A stretch of DNA of 64,000 nucleotides from Gammaproteobacteria bacterium (lineage in GTDB: Bacteria > Pseudomonadota > Gammaproteobacteria > SZUA-140), in assembly GCA_015491865.1 (NCBI GenBank), contig WFVD01000006.1, forward strand, positions 124,001 through 188,000, read 5' to 3'. The stretch's first letter is position 1; each line of letters starts with the position of its first letter. This document shows positions 27,385 through 37,114 of this stretch, in pieces. The translations under genes were made by a program, and so were the position numbers. The notes beneath the pieces were generated by a model. That model did no database searches and was not told the origin of the DNA. It worked only from the letters and a program-made list of their open reading frames with translations.

Positions 27385-28047
27385 CTACCACGAACGCGGC
27401 AGCTTCTGGTGAATCACAATGCGTTCATTCTCAACATGCACATAACCACCCACCACCAGGTCTTTCATAATGCGCGTCACCATCTCGCGCGATGCGCCGA
27501 CCATTTTACCAATATCCTGGTGGGTCGGTTTTGGCTCGACAATCATCCTCCCCTCATCCTCTTCACACGGCACAGCAATGCCGAGCAAAGTTCGTGCAAC
27601 ACGCCCATAGACATCAAGCAGCGCAAGGTTTTTAACGCTATCAGTGAGCGCACGCACCCGGCGAGTCAGGTTTTTGATCACCTTTAATGCAATCACAGGG
27701 TGTTCCAATAGCACCTCCTGGAAGGCACTTTTTGCAATCACACAGAACTGACAACGCTCTGCGGTGATCACTGACGCAGAACGTGGCAGATCATCCAGTA
27801 GCGCAAGCTCACCGAAATACTCGCCGGCTCCCTGGGTGTTCAGAATCACCTCGCGCCCTTTTTCGCTGGTTAAAAACACCTTTACCCGGCCACTTAAAAT
27901 TAGAAACAGTGAGTCGGAATCATCGCCTTCATGAATAACAATGGTGTTGCGTGGAAACCCCCTTACCGAAGCCCCCTCATAGATCACTGACAACTCATCC
28001 GCTTCCAGTCCAGCGAACAGTGGGATATTGGCTAACTGACGATCCAT
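27385..28047 (-). CDS. Crp/Fnr-family transcriptional regulator
   Basis: Cyclic-nucleotide-binding domain with GEYFGELALLDDLPRSASV phosphate-binding cassette; C-terminal HTH HQDIGKMVGASREMVTRIMKDL. No N-terminal Fe-S Cys cluster. Confidence 0.9.
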   Translation of the reverse strand: MDRQLANIPLFAGLEADELSVIYEGASVRGFPRNTIVIHEGDDSDSLFLILSGRVKVFLTSEKGREVILNTQGAGEYFGELALLDDLPRSASVITAERCQFCVIAKSAFQEVLLEHPVIALKVIKNLTRRVRALTDSVKNLALLDVYGRVARTLLGIAVPCEEDEGRMIVEPKPTHQDIGKMVGASREMVTRIMKDLVVGGYVHVENERIVIHQKLPRSW

Positions 28048-28319
28048 CTGACCTCCGTCAAACAAACAAAACCTTAGTTATTATAATTGTTTATCGACTC
28101 ATGATAACACGCACCAATTTTCCAGTTTTAGTCCCTCCCCATATAACTGCCTCTTCACCCACTCCTCGCAACCCTGTATGCTTTTGAACTCACTCATAAA
28201 AACCATAAAAGATGAGTACATCTTAGCCGCCGCTCATAATATGTTAACAACCCCTGCATTGGATAGAATGGCCCTGTTTAACCAGCCGCAACCAGCGCAG
28301 ATGGCGCGAGGAACCCCCG

Positions 28320-30557
28320 TTGCTGAATAAATCAAAATGGTTAATCCTGGGGCTAACAGGCGGCGTACTGGGGGCACTGCTTGCACTTAGCCCCTGGGCG
28401 CTGAAGCTGGAAGAGGATACCGGCCTGGAGTGGCTATTCCACCAGCGAGGAGCCATCGCCCCGCCAGCAGAACTAGTGATTATCGCTATCGACAAACGCT
28501 CTGCAGATAATCTCGGGCTACCCAATGAGCCAGAAAAGTGGCCCCGGCAGCTGCATGCGGAGCTGGTCTCTCAACTGGCTGCCGCAGGCGTTAAAAGCAT
28601 CACCTTCGATGTACTCTTCAAAACGCCGCGAGAGCCGCAACAGGATCAGGCTTTCGCTGATGCAGTCACACGCGCCAATAATGTTATTCTGTTTGAATTC
28701 ATGAAAAAGGAGCTGGCCAGTCATAACACCACAGCAGAGCTGGGCACCACGATTCGTCGTCGCATTCCACCGATTCCACCACTCGCCGATACCGCTGCCG
28801 CACTGGCACCGTTCCCACTCCCCAAGGTGCCACTCAAGGTTAGCCAGTTCTGGAGCTTTGCCGCCGATGCAGGCGATGCTGCCACGCTGCCCACCGCCAC
28901 GCTGCAGCTCTACACGTTAGACGCCTTTGATGATTTTCGTACCCTGCTACAGATGCTGGCACCTCAACTGGCTGCAAAGCTGCCGCCGAGTCAGCAGGCC
29001 GTACTAGAAAGGCGCCAACTCACCCTCTTCATGCACCAGCTAAAACGGCTCTTTGCCGATCACCCGCTGCTGCTCAAACAGCTCACCGCAGCGGCACAAG
29101 ACCCAGCCAGAGAGTTTAAACACCGCAAACAGCTACTCGCCTGGTTACGCATCTATCACATGCGTCATAGTCACTACCTCAACTACTACGGCCCACCACG
29201 CACCATCACCACCATTCCGTTCTATCAGATTATTCAAAGCGACCACTCAGCCGATTTCCAGGCACAGCTCGCAGCACTCAAAGGAAAAATCATCTTTGTC
29301 GGATACTCAGCGGAACTGCAGTGGGAACAGAAAGATGGCTTCTACAGCGTCTACTCTCGCGCAGATGGGCTCGACATCAGTGGGGTTGAAATCGCTGCCA
29401 CCGCCACTGCAAATCTACTACAGGGGGAGACGATTCAGCCACTCTCACCGATCTCACACTTCACCCTGCTGCTGCTGTGGGGTGCACTGGTCGGCCTGAT
29501 CGCCTCTCGCCTGCCTGCTGTTATTGCCACCTTAACGACACTACTACTCATGGGGGGGTACTTTCTGCTAAGTCTCTCCCTGTTTAGTGGCAGCCACCTC
29601 TGGCTACCACTGCTCATTCCATTACTGATACAGGCGCCGCTGATCCTCTTTGCAGGCATCATCTGGAAACATCTGGATAGTGTGCATGAGCGCCACAGAA
29701 TTCACACAGCGTTCCGCAACTATCTGCCAGAACAGGAGATCCACCGCCTGACTCAGGATGATGCCCCCCTGGCACCGGGAGGTGAGCTGCGTTACGGTAT
29801 CTGCCTGTTTACCGATGCCGCGCAGTACACGCAGCTCTCAGAACAGCTGCCACCCGATCAACTTGGCGCGCTAATGAACAGCTACTATGAGACCATCTTT
29901 ACACCGATACACCACCACGAGGGAATTATCTCTGACGTGGTGGGTGATGCTGCGATGGCGCTCTGGCCCACGACTCAACCATCCCAGAAGTTACGCCACG
30001 CCGCATGCTGTGCAGCGATTGATCTGATTGATGCCGTTGAACGCTTCAATCTCACCCATCCATCTTATCAACTCCCCACCAGGGTCGGCATGCACTGCGG
30101 TGAGATCCTCCTGGGCAATGTCGGAGCCGTGGGACGCCTTGAATACCGAGCGACAGGAGATGTTGTCAATACCACCTCACGTATCGAAGGGATGAATAAA
30201 CAGCTCGGCACCCGCCTGCTCGTGAGTGACGACATCCTCCAGGGGCTGAACGATTTTCAGACTCGCCCGATGGGAACGTTTATCCTCGCAGGCAAATCTC
30301 GCCCGATCACTCTGCATGAGCTCATCTGCCGACGCAGCGATGCCAGCGAAGTACAACGACAACTCAGCGAACAGTTCGCCACCGCCCTGCAGCTCTTCAA
30401 GGAGGGCAACTGGTCTGATGCCGATGCTTTATTCAAAACGATCATAGACGCCAGCCTGGACCCCCCTTCAAACTATTACAGCCAGCTCTGCCAGCAATTT
30501 CAGCGTACTCAACCGGCACATCCATGGCGTGGAATCATCAATATCGCCACCAAATGA
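28320..30557 (+). CDS. CHASE2-domain class III nucleotidyl cyclase
   Basis: N-terminal TM + CHASE2-like extracytoplasmic region (IIAIDKRSADNLG...WPRQLHAELVSQLAAAGVKSITFDVLF), three C-terminal TMs, cyclase domain (YGICLFTDAAQYTQLSE, GDAAMALWP, YRATGDVVNTTSRIEGMNKQ). TTG start. Confidence 0.88.
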   Translation: MLNKSKWLILGLTGGVLGALLALSPWALKLEEDTGLEWLFHQRGAIAPPAELVIIAIDKRSADNLGLPNEPEKWPRQLHAELVSQLAAAGVKSITFDVLFKTPREPQQDQAFADAVTRANNVILFEFMKKELASHNTTAELGTTIRRRIPPIPPLADTAAALAPFPLPKVPLKVSQFWSFAADAGDAATLPTATLQLYTLDAFDDFRTLLQMLAPQLAAKLPPSQQAVLERRQLTLFMHQLKRLFADHPLLLKQLTAAAQDPAREFKHRKQLLAWLRIYHMRHSHYLNYYGPPRTITTIPFYQIIQSDHSADFQAQLAALKGKIIFVGYSAELQWEQKDGFYSVYSRADGLDISGVEIAATATANLLQGETIQPLSPISHFTLLLLWGALVGLIASRLPAVIATLTTLLLMGGYFLLSLSLFSGSHLWLPLLIPLLIQAPLILFAGIIWKHLDSVHERHRIHTAFRNYLPEQEIHRLTQDDAPLAPGGELRYGICLFTDAAQYTQLSEQLPPDQLGALMNSYYETIFTPIHHHEGIISDVVGDAAMALWPTTQPSQKLRHAACCAAIDLIDAVERFNLTHPSYQLPTRVGMHCGEILLGNVGAVGRLEYRATGDVVNTTSRIEGMNKQLGTRLLVSDDILQGLNDFQTRPMGTFILAGKSRPITLHELICRRSDASEVQRQLSEQFATALQLFKEGNWSDADALFKTIIDASLDPPSNYYSQLCQQFQRTQPAHPWRGIINIATK

Positions 30558-30900: not shown

Positions 30901-33900
30901 ATGAAACACCGACCACGAAGCGCGCAACGGCTATGGCTGTGGCTGTGGCTCTCCTTCTGTCTGCTCACCATATCGGCCTCGTCCTCTGTATCAGCAACAG
31001 CGCAGTGTGATGAATGGGTTGCTCGAATTATCTCAGTTCAGGGACAGGTTGAAGCAAAAACGGCTCATGAAAACCGCTGGAAAAATGTCGAACAGGGGCA
31101 GCGCTACTGCGCAAACGACATGATCCATGTGCGCGAAAACAGCCGTGCGGCACTGGAACTGGCTAACGAGACCATCATCCGTCTCGATCAAAACACCACC
31201 ATTGTGTTAAGTGGTGAAAGCGAAGAGGCCTCCTGGCTCGATCTGCTGAAGGGCGCGGTACATTTTATTACCCGCACACCCAACGCACTGAAGATCAAGA
31301 CCCCCTATGTTAACGCCGCAGTGGAAGGGACTGAGTTTGTGATCCGGGTAGAGAACGGCGAAACCATCGTTAGCGTCATCGAGGGGCGTGTAGCGCTGGA
31401 GAATGAGCAGGGGGCGCTGCTACTCACCAACGGCCAGTCTGCCTCTGCACGTGCAGGTGAGGCGCCGCTGAGACGCCTCGACATCAGGCCAGAAGATGCG
31501 GTGCAGTGGTCGCTCTATTACCCCAGTATAATCGACCGCTCTGCCCTGCGCGCTCACCCCCTCACCCTGGAAGCCGACCGGCTGCTGAGCGTTGGGCGGG
31601 CGGCGGAAGCGCGTGCATTGCTCGATAAAATAGTGCAGCTGAGACCTGACAGCGCGGCTGCATATGCGATGCAGTCGATCATTGCACTGACGCAAAACCG
31701 CAACGATGAAGCGTTGGTACTGGCCACTCAGGCCTTTGCCCTGAACCCAACTACCCCGACCACTGCGATCGCCCTCTCTTATGCACAGCAGGCTCAGTTT
31801 GATCTACGCGCAGCACGTAACACCTTGCAACACGCACTCCACATCACTCCCGATAGCAGCCTGCTGCTGGCCCGGCAGGCTGAGCTGCTGCTGTCGCTTG
31901 ACGATCTTGATCAGGCCGAACGGATGGCGCAACAGGCGCTCGGCATCAATCCCGAGCAGGCACACGCCCTCACCATTCTCGGCTTTGCCCATCTCGGCCA
32001 GTTTAATACCCAACGTGCCAGACGCTATTTTGAACAGGCCATCAACCTCGATCAGGCCAGCCCCCTGCCCCGCCTTGGTATCGGGCTGGCACTAATCCGT
32101 GATGGAGCGCTTGGTGATGGACGACGCGAAATCGAGATCGCCGCGACGTTGAGTCCCGCCAACGCGTTGATCCGCAGCTACCTCGGTAAAGCCTACTATG
32201 AAGAGAAACGCAACGACCTCGCCGCCGATCAGTTTATGCTCGCCAAGTCCCTTGACCCGAATGACCCCACGCCGTGGTTTTATGATGCGATCCGTAAACA
32301 GACACTGAATAACCCCGTGGGGGCACTGCAGGATCTACAGCAGTCGATTCAGCTCAACGATAACCGTGCCGTTTACCGCTCACGCATGCTCCTCGATCAG
32401 GATCAGGCAGCGCGTAGCAGCAGTCTGGCCCGCATCTATAATGACCTGGGGTTTCAGCAGCTCGCATTGAGTGAAGGGTGGAAGTCGCTCAATACAGATC
32501 CCGGTAACCATTCGGCACATCGCCTGCTGGCCGACTCCTATTCGGTACTGCCACGCCATGAGATTGCACGGGTCAGCGAACTGTTACAGTCGCAGCTGTT
32601 ACAGCCGCTCAACCTGAACCCGATTCAGCCGCAGCTGGCGGAAAGTTCTCTCGGCATTCTCGATGGCGCAGGCCCCACCAGCGCTACCGCCAATGAGTTC
32701 AACCCACTCTTTACCCGCAACCGCTTTTCGCTACAACTGAATGGCATCGCAGCACAACAGGATAGCGAGCAGAGACACGGACAGGATTATACAACGCGCA
32801 GTAGTGACCTTGTTCACGCTGCTGTCATCGGGCGCTACTCCTATAGCGTCGGCACCTTTCGTGATGACAATGAAGGGATTCGTCCCAATCAGGATCGGGG
32901 TCGCCGGATCGATAATCTCTTTTTACAGGCAGCTCTGTCACACAAAACCAGCGTGCAGTTTGAGTACCGTGATACGCAGATCTCACAAGGCGACCTGCCA
33001 CTACGCTACGCCCCCTCGCTCTTCTCCAGCAGTGAAAGGCGATTTATCGATAGCCGTGTTCTACGGCTCGGCATGCGTCATGATTTCTCACCGGGCAACA
33101 CGCTGCTCTTCTCGGCGATCAACAATGGGTACGAAGAGCACACACGGGACAATGCCGCCCTCAACCTGGCTCCACCATCCGGCACCGTTCCCAGGTCACT
33201 CACTGTGGATCTTTCGGAATCAGGACAGACCTTTGAACTCCAGCACCATCTTTTTAAAAAGGGGTACAGTATTATTAGCGGAGCGGGCACCTATCGCTCA
33301 GATAAAAATCAGATTATTGATGTCAATTTCCCCACTCCTTTCTGCCCCCCTTTCTGCTCAACCAATATTCCGGTAACCTCTGAAATCCGCCACCATAACG
33401 GCTATCTATACAGCCATATCGAGCAGGGAGAACTCACCTGGACGACCGGCCTGAGTATCGATGATGTCACCACCCAGGCCAGGGTTGAAACGCAGATCAA
33501 CCCCAAGCTAGGGTTGACCTGGCAAGTGAATAACAGCACAACATTGCGCGCGGCCGCCTTCCGCACCATGGCGCGTAGCCTGGTGGCCAACCAGACCGTG
33601 GAACCAACCCAGGTGGCAGGGTTTAACCAGTTCTTTGATGACATCAGTGGCAGCGATGCCCGCCGCTACGGAGTAGCGCTGGAGAAAAACCTGGAAACAT
33701 TCTACCTCGGCGTTGAAGTCTCCAAACGCAATCTTGAAGTCCCCTTTCTTGCTGCCCAGACAAATAAAACCTTTAAGGCCGGCTGGGCGGAACAGGCAGG
33801 ACGTGCCTACACCTACTGGACACCGCTCAAATGGCTAGCCGCCAGCGCAGAATATCAATATGAGTCTTTCAGACGCCCAGCGACCGACAGCTTTGATAAG

Positions 33901-34248
33901 CGAGACGGAACAGTAGGAATACCCGACCTCACTACTCAGCAGCTACCACTCAGCATTAATCTCTTTTCCACCAATGGATTCACAACCAACATCTCAGCCA
34001 CGCGAGTTAAACAAAGAGGGGAGTTTGCTACTGCCATCCAGACCGGAACCACTACGACCTTTAGCGCCGACCAGTTCTGGGTGTTCGATACCGCTGTCAG
34101 CTTCCGGCTAAGCAATCGCCTCGGGCGTGTCACTATCGGGGCCAAGAACCTGCTGGACAAGGCTTTTCTTTATCATAACAGCGATATTGCAACAACACGT
34201 CTCCTGCCGGAACGCACCCTTTTCACCCATCTCTCGCTCTCATTCTAA
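30901..34248 (+). CDS. FecR domain + TPR repeats + C-terminal outer-membrane beta-barrel fusion protein
   Basis: Signal peptide; FecR-like region (VRENSRAALELANETIIRLDQNTTIVL...KIKTPYVNAAVEGTEFVIRVENGETIVSVIEGRVAL); about eight TPR-like repeats; C-terminal TBDR-like strands (LGLTWQVNNSTTLRAAAFRTMARSLVANQTVEPTQVAGFNQFFDD...GAKNLLDKAFLYH...LSLSF). Confidence 0.85.
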   Translation: MKHRPRSAQRLWLWLWLSFCLLTISASSSVSATAQCDEWVARIISVQGQVEAKTAHENRWKNVEQGQRYCANDMIHVRENSRAALELANETIIRLDQNTTIVLSGESEEASWLDLLKGAVHFITRTPNALKIKTPYVNAAVEGTEFVIRVENGETIVSVIEGRVALENEQGALLLTNGQSASARAGEAPLRRLDIRPEDAVQWSLYYPSIIDRSALRAHPLTLEADRLLSVGRAAEARALLDKIVQLRPDSAAAYAMQSIIALTQNRNDEALVLATQAFALNPTTPTTAIALSYAQQAQFDLRAARNTLQHALHITPDSSLLLARQAELLLSLDDLDQAERMAQQALGINPEQAHALTILGFAHLGQFNTQRARRYFEQAINLDQASPLPRLGIGLALIRDGALGDGRREIEIAATLSPANALIRSYLGKAYYEEKRNDLAADQFMLAKSLDPNDPTPWFYDAIRKQTLNNPVGALQDLQQSIQLNDNRAVYRSRMLLDQDQAARSSSLARIYNDLGFQQLALSEGWKSLNTDPGNHSAHRLLADSYSVLPRHEIARVSELLQSQLLQPLNLNPIQPQLAESSLGILDGAGPTSATANEFNPLFTRNRFSLQLNGIAAQQDSEQRHGQDYTTRSSDLVHAAVIGRYSYSVGTFRDDNEGIRPNQDRGRRIDNLFLQAALSHKTSVQFEYRDTQISQGDLPLRYAPSLFSSSERRFIDSRVLRLGMRHDFSPGNTLLFSAINNGYEEHTRDNAALNLAPPSGTVPRSLTVDLSESGQTFELQHHLFKKGYSIISGAGTYRSDKNQIIDVNFPTPFCPPFCSTNIPVTSEIRHHNGYLYSHIEQGELTWTTGLSIDDVTTQARVETQINPKLGLTWQVNNSTTLRAAAFRTMARSLVANQTVEPTQVAGFNQFFDDISGSDARRYGVALEKNLETFYLGVEVSKRNLEVPFLAAQTNKTFKAGWAEQAGRAYTYWTPLKWLAASAEYQYESFRRPATDSFDKRDGTVGIPDLTTQQLPLSINLFSTNGFTTNISATRVKQRGEFATAIQTGTTTTFSADQFWVFDTAVSFRLSNRLGRVTIGAKNLLDKAFLYHNSDIATTRLLPERTLFTHLSLSF

Positions 34249-34410: not shown

Positions 34411-34427
34411 AACTTTTGTTAAAAGTT
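34411..34427. promoter_or_regulatory. Perfect palindromic site upstream of the Cys-rich peptide gene
   Basis: AACTTTT-GTT-AAAAGTT, 120 bp upstream of ATG 34547; shape of a dimeric-regulator operator. Confidence 0.45.
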
Positions 34428-34546
34428 CACACTCCCCCGGTACAAAGGTTCACTGAGTTATTCCGCCCCTCTCCCTACCATGTCATTGGCCATGAGGATT
34501 TTCCGATCTTCATGCTTATTATTCATTCCTGAGGAGGATAAAGACG

Positions 34547-34825
34547 ATGCGCAATACATTCAAAAAAAACCTGACTGCCGCCATCTTTGCTATGTTTATT
34601 GCCCTGCCGCTTAGCGTACAGGCCACTGATGCCAATGTTGACTATAGTACCTCTACTGCCGCCAAAGGCAGCGTAAAGGAGATCCTTGCCGATATCCGCA
34701 GCGATCCAAGAGGGGTTGATGGCGAGATCATCAAGAGTGCCAAGGTATTGCCATTTGGCAACCATGACACCGTGGTCGCCTCGTGCTGGTATTGCGGCGG
34801 TACAGGTTGCATCTGGATCTGCTAG
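34547..34825 (+). CDS. 92-aa secreted precursor peptide with Cys-rich C-terminus
   Basis: Strong SD (TGAGGAGGATAAAGACG-ATG); Sec signal MRNTFKKNLTAAIFAMFIALPLSVQA; C-terminus ...VVASCWYCGGTGCIWIC. Confidence 0.75.
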   Translation: MRNTFKKNLTAAIFAMFIALPLSVQATDANVDYSTSTAAKGSVKEILADIRSDPRGVDGEIIKSAKVLPFGNHDTVVASCWYCGGTGCIWIC

Positions 34826-35140
34826 CATGTTGTGAGGCGCAGGGAGGCGCCCATTCAAAACAGTCCAGCGATTAGCACATTCTCACCTTATCGACGATGG
34901 TAATTTATCACACGCAGGTCGGGTACTTTTTCACATCTATATTTTCTCAGTTCACCCATGATCAGAGCTGTCTCTGAGAACTGGCGCGTAGTGGCATACA
35001 CAAAAGGCTCAGAGGTTCCACAGGGAAGTATAAAGGAGGGAGCTGCTAGCAAGGGGGCACAGGGATTGCGCCCCTCAGATCCCGTTCTATACAACTTCGA
35101 AAATACCGTATCGCGACAATGGCTGACCAGGGTGAGCAAG

Positions 35141-35950
35141 ATGGCAACAGAAATTACACACACAGACCTTTACAGGCTGACCAGCAACCTGGCGAAAGCG
35201 CGCTCACTTGATGAGATCAATGTTCAGTGTACTGAATTTTGCCAGCTCACCGGCTTCAACTTTTTCAGCTACTGCGCAACGATTCCGACAGCCCTGACCC
35301 GCCCGGACATGATTGAAATCAACAGCTACCCTGAGACATGGCAGGCCCTTTATCGTGAAAAAGAGCTGATCAAAACAGACCCGACGCTACTTTATGCCGA
35401 GACCCACCATACACCTGTCACCTGGGATGAGATGGCACTCAACCGCCATGTCGATGACAAAAGCTCACACCAGTATATCCTTAAGGCTAGAGAATATGGC
35501 CTGAACAGCGGTGTTAGTTTTCCACTTAGAGGCAATGTTGGCAGCACAGCCGTACTTAGCCTGGTCTCGAAAAAGAGAGAGCCGCTACCGCAGCCACTCA
35601 TCGACACCGCCTTCACCTTCGGTGCACTATTTGCCAACTATGTTCATGATGCGGTACTACGCATTTTCGATGAAGACCTGCTGCCGATTAAAAAGAAACG
35701 CATCAGCCTGCGTGAAAGGGAGTGCCTGCTTTGGGTGGCTGAAGGTAAAACCACCTGGGAAATCGCCAGGATCCTGAAAATAGCGGAACGCACCGTGGTT
35801 TATCATCTCGAAAATATCATCGCTAAACTTGAGGTCAGAAACCGCCAGCAAGCCGTCGCCCGCGGCATGATAATGAGCTATATCTCTCACCGCCTCGACT
35901 GGGAAGCGCCACCGCACCAGAGAAAGGTTATACCCAAAAATACCGTTTAA
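35141..35950 (+). CDS. LuxR-family regulator with autoinducer-binding-like domain
   Basis: MATEITHTDLYRLTSNL...ETWQALYREKELIKTDPTLLYAETHHTPVTWDE...YGLNSGVSFPLRG; LuxR HTH SLRERECLLWVAEGKTTWEIARILKIAERTVVYHLENIIAKLEVRNRQQAV. ORF open from 34958; start chosen by domain fit. Confidence 0.88.
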   Translation: MATEITHTDLYRLTSNLAKARSLDEINVQCTEFCQLTGFNFFSYCATIPTALTRPDMIEINSYPETWQALYREKELIKTDPTLLYAETHHTPVTWDEMALNRHVDDKSSHQYILKAREYGLNSGVSFPLRGNVGSTAVLSLVSKKREPLPQPLIDTAFTFGALFANYVHDAVLRIFDEDLLPIKKKRISLRERECLLWVAEGKTTWEIARILKIAERTVVYHLENIIAKLEVRNRQQAVARGMIMSYISHRLDWEAPPHQRKVIPKNTV

Positions 35951-36043: not shown

Positions 36044-37114
36044 TTGCAATTCGTGCTTGTTAAGATATTAGCGTTTATTACTATAATAGTAGCGCCCGTC
36101 GCCAACTCAGTGGCGACCTCAACTGATGGGGCCGTTATATTGATGTACCACCATTTTGGTGAAGCTCGCTATCCCAGCACCAATATCTCACTACAACAAT
36201 TTGATAGCCATCTCGACTATCTTGAGAAAAATAACTTTCAGGTCTGGTCTCTGGAAAGAATTATCAAACAGCTTAACAGTCAGCAGCCATTCCCGGGGAA
36301 AGTGGTCGCAATTACCATTGATGACGCTTATCGGTCGGTCTATTCCAACGCATACCCCCGGCTTAAACAGCGTCGTTGGCCATTTACTGTCTTTGTATCA
36401 ACCGATACGGTGGATAAAAAGATGCCTGCCTTTATGAGCTGGGATCAGATGCGGGAGATGCAGCAGCATGGTGCCACGTTTGCCAACCACTCAAGCTATC
36501 ACGACTTTCTGATTGAACATAAAGATAACGAAACGGCGAGCGCATGGCAGCACCGGATCAGGCGTGATCTACAGCATGCACAACAGCGACTACAGAGAGA
36601 ACTGGGCACCGCACCCGCTCTCTTTGCCTACCCTTACGGTGAATATAACCTGCCACTACAGCAGATAGTCAAGGAGCTGGGATGGACCGCTTTTGGGCAG
36701 CAATCTGGCGTGGTGAGCCGATATTCGGATCGACTCGCGCTACCACGCTATCCGATGGCGGAACAGTTCGCGACACTAGCGCAATTCAGGACAAAAGTGA
36801 TGAGCCTGCCGATGCCGATAATCACCAGCACTCCTTCCAGTCCAGTACTCGGAAAAAAGAACCCGCCGATGCTACAGCTCACATTAGCAGATAACGGCGA
36901 CATCCAGCTTGATCAACTGAACTGCTTTGCAAGCAACCAGGGGCCGACCAGCGTGAGATGGCTCGATAAAGTGAATGGGCGTTTTACCGTTGAAGCCCGG
37001 CAGCCGTTTGATAATCGGCGCAATCGCTACAACTGCACTGCCCCCTCAAGAGAGAGGGGGCGTTATTACTGGTATAGCCAGCTATGGATTCAATCAAAAA
37101 CGGCTAGCAACTAA
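36044..37114 (+). CDS. Secreted NodB-type polysaccharide deacetylase
   Basis: TTG start, signal peptide; VILMYHHFG, VAITIDDAYRSVY (motif 1), FANHSSYHDFL (HSxxH motif 2), APALFAYPYGEYN (motif 3). Confidence 0.9.
   Translation: MQFVLVKILAFITIIVAPVANSVATSTDGAVILMYHHFGEARYPSTNISLQQFDSHLDYLEKNNFQVWSLERIIKQLNSQQPFPGKVVAITIDDAYRSVYSNAYPRLKQRRWPFTVFVSTDTVDKKMPAFMSWDQMREMQQHGATFANHSSYHDFLIEHKDNETASAWQHRIRRDLQHAQQRLQRELGTAPALFAYPYGEYNLPLQQIVKELGWTAFGQQSGVVSRYSDRLALPRYPMAEQFATLAQFRTKVMSLPMPIITSTPSSPVLGKKNPPMLQLTLADNGDIQLDQLNCFASNQGPTSVRWLDKVNGRFTVEARQPFDNRRNRYNCTAPSRERGRYYWYSQLWIQSKTASN

Follow-up and report, generated by a model that had tools for sequence, protein, structure and literature searches.

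The open reading frame (ORF) analyzed here is a real gene that codes for a previously unnamed small exported, probably disulfide-bonded protein of 92 residues, and the module around it looks undescribed. The gene is located directly behind that of a FecR-TPR-barrel protein of the outer membrane, in a slot that across the Gammaproteobacteria is often occupied by a short exported protein whose tail is rich in Cys, and the peptide is more interesting for this slot than for its motif. The link was overlooked in the preliminary description of the window, that is, of the whole 64,000-nucleotide stretch of DNA under analysis. The explanation that we favor, with a probability of about 0.5, is that the peptide is the genus-specific occupant of the slot, a Cys-stapled beta-hairpin that acts as a partner of the barrel and signals via the neighboring CHASE2 cyclase (Table 1).

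Table 1. Positions in the window of the peptide gene, its parts, and the neighboring genes of the module
Feature	Position	Strand	Basis or remark
CRP/FNR-type regulator	27385..28065	-	Family named from its sequence; frequent further neighbor of the module
CHASE2-sensor class III adenylate/guanylate cyclase	28320..30557	+	Pfam; usual upstream neighbor of the barrel gene
Outer-membrane protein: signal, FecR (75-164), TPRs (about 220-500), plug-less TonB-receptor-like beta-barrel (about 600-1115)	30901..34248	+	Pfam; profile matches
Conserved element upstream of the peptide gene, GTTAAWAGTTCAC...TTCACTGAG; may be regulatory	34418..34459	+	Kept in most of the five species
Shine-Dalgarno sequence AGGAGG	34532..34537	+	Read directly; mostly conserved in orthologues
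Exported precursor, 92 aa	34547..34825	+	ORF with Shine-Dalgarno sequence; orthologues in four other species of the genus
Sec signal peptide, residues 1-26	34547..34624	+	KK, hydrophobic run, and AxA-like site; judged by eye
Pro-region, residues 27-79, AKGSVKEILADIRSDPRGxDGExIKxxKVLPFG	34625..34783	+	Purifying selection on residues 37-79
Variable core, residues 80-92, CWYCGGTGCIWIC	34784..34822	+	Four invariant Cys; likely disulfide-stapled beta-hairpin
LuxR-type regulator (Autoind_bind and GerE)	35141..35950	+	Pfam; the listed ORF begins at 34958, the inferred start is 35141

The precursor and its orthologues

Annotation tends to overlook exported proteins as short as this one. The translation of this ORF, MRNTFKKNLTAAIFAMFIALPLSVQA/TDAN...ASCWYCGGTGCIWIC, matched no Pfam or NCBIfam family. 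The strong Shine-Dalgarno sequence reported in the preliminary description is indeed there, 9 nt upstream of the ATG, and the same can be said of the clear Sec signal peptide, as a Sec-type signal is kept in all five genomes that carry the gene, with an AxA-like site that reads VQA in the window and AYA or AQA in the orthologues. The first Cys of the precursor is residue 80, so that all four are found in the core at the extreme C terminus; the chance of finding four Cys among the last 13 residues of an average protein tail is about 3e-6 to 3e-5.

A search of 55 related genomes recovered the peptide in five species including that of the window, all belonging to a single genus, with identities to the window peptide of 95% (G006), 74% (G008), 67% (G005), and 38% (G004). 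The position of the gene was the same in every assembled case, directly downstream of the barrel gene and on the same strand (G000, G006, G008, G005, and G004). A profile of the peptide run against the 20 genomes of the order and 369 genomes of the class retrieved nothing further that held up; two weak matches in class genomes were discarded, one being a cytochrome-like signal peptide and the other an unrelated frame. Scanning one genome per GTDB species gave two loci only, both corresponding to members of the genus (G006 and G005), and none was found among plasmids, so the class, GTDB-species, and plasmid searches revealed no sequence homologue beyond the genus. Comparison with PHROGs and PADLOC gave nothing meaningful either.

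Pro-region and core evolve in opposite ways. Between the window and G005, 35 of the 43 residues at positions 37 to 79 are identical (pN 0.12 and pS 0.43 in the codon alignment), and the ranges among the closer species are 0.12 to 0.16 for pN and 0.43 to 0.72 for pS. As pN/pS of the pro-region is well below 1 in these species, the ORF is very probably translated and under selection. In the core, the same comparison with G005 retains all four Cys but none of the nine other residues (Fisher p=6.6e-6 versus the pro-region), and the contrast is also seen with G008 (p=0.008), although it is valid for the four closer species only, as in the more divergent G004 the pro-region has changed as well. A conserved Cys core behind a variable spacer had been anticipated from the window alone, and we see the reverse.

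The core sequences of the five species are CWYCGGTGCIWIC, CWYCGSTGCIWIC, CWFCFLPGQCIWVC, CVICIAGMCFHTC, and CSWICGAGVCWFMCW. The four Cys are invariant, while their spacing follows C-x(2-3)-C-x(4-5)-C-x3-C, and Lys, Arg, Asp, and Glu are absent from all cores (four distinct cores counted, that of G006 by eye). Thus, the preliminary description was right about a Cys-free spacer followed by Cys confined to the last 13 residues, but its C-x2-C-x4-C-x3-C spacing is not fixed; among the orthologues the Cys are conserved and the spacing varies between x2 and x3 and between x4 and x5. It had also compared CWYCGGTG to the CxxCxGxG half-motif of DnaJ-type proteins. The window sequence does fit this pattern, as does CWYCGSTG of G006, but the pattern is lost in three of the five orthologues (CWFCFLPG in G008, CVICIAGM in G005, and CSWICGAG in G004). 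DnaJ itself is a cytoplasmic co-chaperone with four such repeats, whereas the window peptide has one half-motif, a Sec signal, and no Pfam match, and we therefore reject the zinc motif. Invariant Cys with every other residue free, spacing included, look like a disulfide-held scaffold and speak against a metal site that is DnaJ-like or of fixed geometry. Of the proposal of an exported disulfide or metal-binding peptide, the former half is retained: the conserved signal, pro-region, and four Cys support an exported protein with a disulfide-type core, as does the DsbB encoded in the genome. The AlphaFold2 model of the peptide, of low confidence as a whole (pLDDT 45), places a hairpin at residues 81 to 84 and 87 to 90; with a pLDDT of about 50 there, we take it as a weak hint of a beta-hairpin.

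The barrel gene and the slot behind it

The C-terminal part of the barrel protein was assigned through its homologues, which match TonB_dep_Rec_b-barrel (8e-16) and Porin_4 in Pfam, and through a PDB profile match to the iron-receptor structure 5fok (1.3e-4). Pfam detected no plug domain in the protein or its homologues, and the AlphaFold2 model, of low confidence (pLDDT 30), is too poor for use. Residues 815 to 819 of the barrel protein (window positions 33343 to 33357) form a C-x3-C motif, CPPFC, conserved in all the genus members checked, which is a candidate for a disulfide or for a contact with the Cys of the peptide.

Gene order in the genus is CHASE2 cyclase, FecR-TPR-barrel, peptide, and LuxR, and the peptide is present in all cases in which the assembly covers the barrel gene end and the DNA downstream of it, with G003 as the sole special arrangement. 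There (L028:126-6989), two FecR-TPR-barrel genes stand in tandem, separated by 178 nt that contain no peptide gene, and the contig breaks off just after the second. Their FecR parts are strongly different, 97% and 61% identical to that of the window. The gap between barrel and peptide genes in the genus is about 200 to 300 nt and has its own conserved upstream element, so the peptide gene may be a separate transcript; no sigma-70 match was found in this element. A palindrome upstream of the peptide gene, AACTTTTGTTAAAAGTT, was discounted, as it is not conserved in the orthologues. Similarly, the deacetylase at 36044 to 37114 was rejected as a functional partner and is a positional neighbor only, since in G003, G004, and G009 the genes in front of it are others (RnfG/RnfE-like by eye) and the module is missing.

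The barrel protein also occurs outside the genus. We found it in 42 of 369 sampled gammaproteobacterial genomes, and a phylum sample of 398 genomes gave two matches, both within the class, to which every genome listed there belongs. A CHASE2-type cyclase is encoded near the barrel gene at 14 of 20 unrelated loci, and a CRP/FNR-type gene is beside the module at about half of 20 loci. Most of the barrel loci were inspected downstream, and the slot was usually filled by a short gene with a Shine-Dalgarno sequence of its own. The slot was then scored by one rule at 35 barrel loci outside the genus and behind 106 other large genes of the same DNA. A short ORF led by a Shine-Dalgarno sequence within 350 nt downstream was present at 28/35 barrel loci versus 21/106 controls (Fisher p=2e-10), one with a signal-like N terminus at 19/35 versus 2/106 (p=4e-12), and one with two or more Cys among its last 22 residues at 15/35 versus 2/106 (p=5e-9). 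These p values assume independent loci, which is not fully true of related genomes, though many families are represented. The counts are partly post hoc, as the rule was set after example tails had been seen; the controls come from the same loci.

Counted over 26 hand-collected slot proteins, Cys make up 6.8% of the last 25 residues, as opposed to 1.7% of the middle part. Several have Cys at about -14 to -17 and at -1 or -2 from the end (GMCLKLIGGQWVWVAC, GSCYYWIYFQSRWYKAPC, TCWTTYDINGTAQQLCW, and GSVCITFAKEPPGKSWTICW), close to positions -13 and -1 in the window peptide, while in others the tail follows a similar pattern without Cys (GSHYYLMRVGGTYYSIPLLH), and some are without a recognizable signal. 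Seven slot proteins were scanned and belong to no Pfam or NCBIfam family, with only weak matches far below the cut-offs. When the genus peptide was aligned to slot proteins, hhalign gave a probability of 0.7% (P 0.076), HMMER was not significant, and the alignable part was a short DGxxIKxxKxxPF-like stretch only. Homology is not demonstrable in this way; what the two have in common is the slot and the tail geometry, and common descent is inferred. No description of the pair formed by a FecR-TPR-barrel and a small Cys-tailed protein was found in the open-access literature.

More than one slot gene was noted at two loci. In G150 (L076), two lipoproteins at +40 and +552 have identical tails, CWTTYDINGTAQQLCW, and differing middles, the reverse of the pattern in the genus of the window. 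In G062 (L077), genes at +78 and +602 code for exported proteins of 64 and 185 residues with a Cys-rich tail in common (WAKC...C...C-FWSC...MDG-CP).

Proposed role and alternatives

According to the explanation that we favor, the small protein would be exported by Sec, and its last 13 residues would fold as a hydrophobic, uncharged beta-hairpin stapled by two disulfides, of which the outer is probably C80-C92 and the inner C83-C88. The pro-region would be the conserved part, a scaffold that stays in the periplasm or at the outer membrane, whereas the Cys-locked hairpin would offer a rapidly changing surface for contact, docking either with the plug-less barrel (on it or inside it) or with the FecR/TPR part of the same protein. 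The CHASE2 cyclase and the CRP-type regulator could serve to read out occupancy. Counting for a barrel partner are the five orthologues behind the barrel gene, the selection on the pro-region, and the invariant Cys, together with the slot statistics, the tail Cys geometry, the barrel-type profile matches, DsbB, and the weak AlphaFold2 hairpin. Counting against it are the lack of demonstrable homology to slot proteins, those slot proteins without Cys or signal, the possible separate transcript, and the low confidence of the AlphaFold2 models. A wider generalization, which is tentative and in our opinion doubtful, is that the class has an undescribed envelope system in which a plug-less FecR-TPR-barrel works with a separate, fast-evolving Cys-locked hairpin protein, a kind of detached plug or ligand, and its state is reported to a CHASE2 cyclase and a CRP-type regulator.

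FecA-FecR signaling is similar in that a TonB-receptor-type barrel and a FecR domain take part in one system, but here the barrel protein carries FecR as a fused domain on its periplasmic side, and no plug domain was found in it. The Fec system has a sigma factor where the module of the window has a cyclase. The BiofilmReg operon of Burkholderiales also associates an exported FecR-domain protein with a CHASE2 sensor and a regulator, and in one lineage it has a small extra protein (DUF4136) (PMC5192318). However, BiofilmReg pairs a LysM-FecR protein with a CHASE2 histidine kinase (PMC5192318), whereas we find a FecR-TPR-barrel, a CHASE2 cyclase, a CRP-type regulator, and Cys-tailed small proteins without a Pfam family. 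What CHASE2 sensors detect has been described as unknown (PMC5192318). If the recurring pair of a barrel and a Cys-tailed protein beside a cAMP-type signaling gene is true, it would be a testable entry into CHASE2 sensing and would place a whole group of small orphan lipoproteins in context.

The alternative that survives best, albeit an unlikely one, is a released pre-pro-peptide effector, bacteriocin- or toxin-like, whose disulfide-rich core of 13 to 16 residues would be cleaved off and diversify against changing targets. The layout is that of STa-type enterotoxin precursors, small Sec precursors with signal, pro-sequence, and C-terminal Cys core, the latter folded by disulfides in the periplasm (PMC6356903), and the glycine-rich, toxin-like gene arrays with small membrane-protein partners at or near the locus in G004 and G003 would also agree with an effector. 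Nevertheless, STa has six Cys and three disulfides versus four Cys in all our orthologues, its alleles vary in the pro region while here it is the core that varies, and the genomic setting is different, with no sign of a host target; we claim no sequence relation. In addition, no immunity gene, dedicated exporter, or processing protease was recognized adjacent to the peptide, no conserved cleavage motif was seen ahead of the core, the uncharged core is unlike that of cationic hairpin antimicrobials, and the class-wide slot pattern favors a barrel partner.

We consider it improbable that the peptide is a signal read by the adjacent LuxR-type regulator, despite the LuxR gene following the peptide in the genus and staying with it where the locus is elsewhere. 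The genome gave no LuxI match, in a search whose control was also silent. LuxR regulators are cytoplasmic, no such gene was seen beside the slot in other loci, and this regulator retains YPxxWxxxY...DP...TW...G, the signature of an acyl-homoserine-lactone pocket. There is likewise little chance of a ribosomally synthesized and enzymatically modified peptide (RiPP) with a Sec leader: a conserved leader or pro-region before a hypervariable core is the usual RiPP signature, but no modification enzyme was recognized among the flanking genes, in agreement with the preliminary description, and a MNIO-type RiPP is ruled out by the absence of PF05114 from the genome in a search with a working positive control. 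Least probable of all is an exported peptide binding Zn, Cu, or Fe-S through its four closely spaced, invariant Cys, given their differing spacing among orthologues, a core without conserved His, Asp, or Glu ligands, an oxidizing periplasm that favors disulfides in a genome with DsbB, and no metal transport or resistance gene recognized adjacent.

Cassette arrays and a decayed peptide copy

Cassette arrays are found at or near the module in G004 (L030:1-4604 and L029:1-313) and G003 (L028:7392-12411). They code for proteins of 362 to 366 residues with a glycine-rich hydrophobic end and for membrane proteins of 125 to 143 residues, pairs that resemble toxin/immunity pairs and matched no Pfam family. 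G004 also has a second copy of the peptide (C62, L030:4489-4680), fused to the end of a cassette and directly before the LuxR gene. With its start lost, a frameshift, a truncation, and three core Cys left, it is a decayed duplicate.
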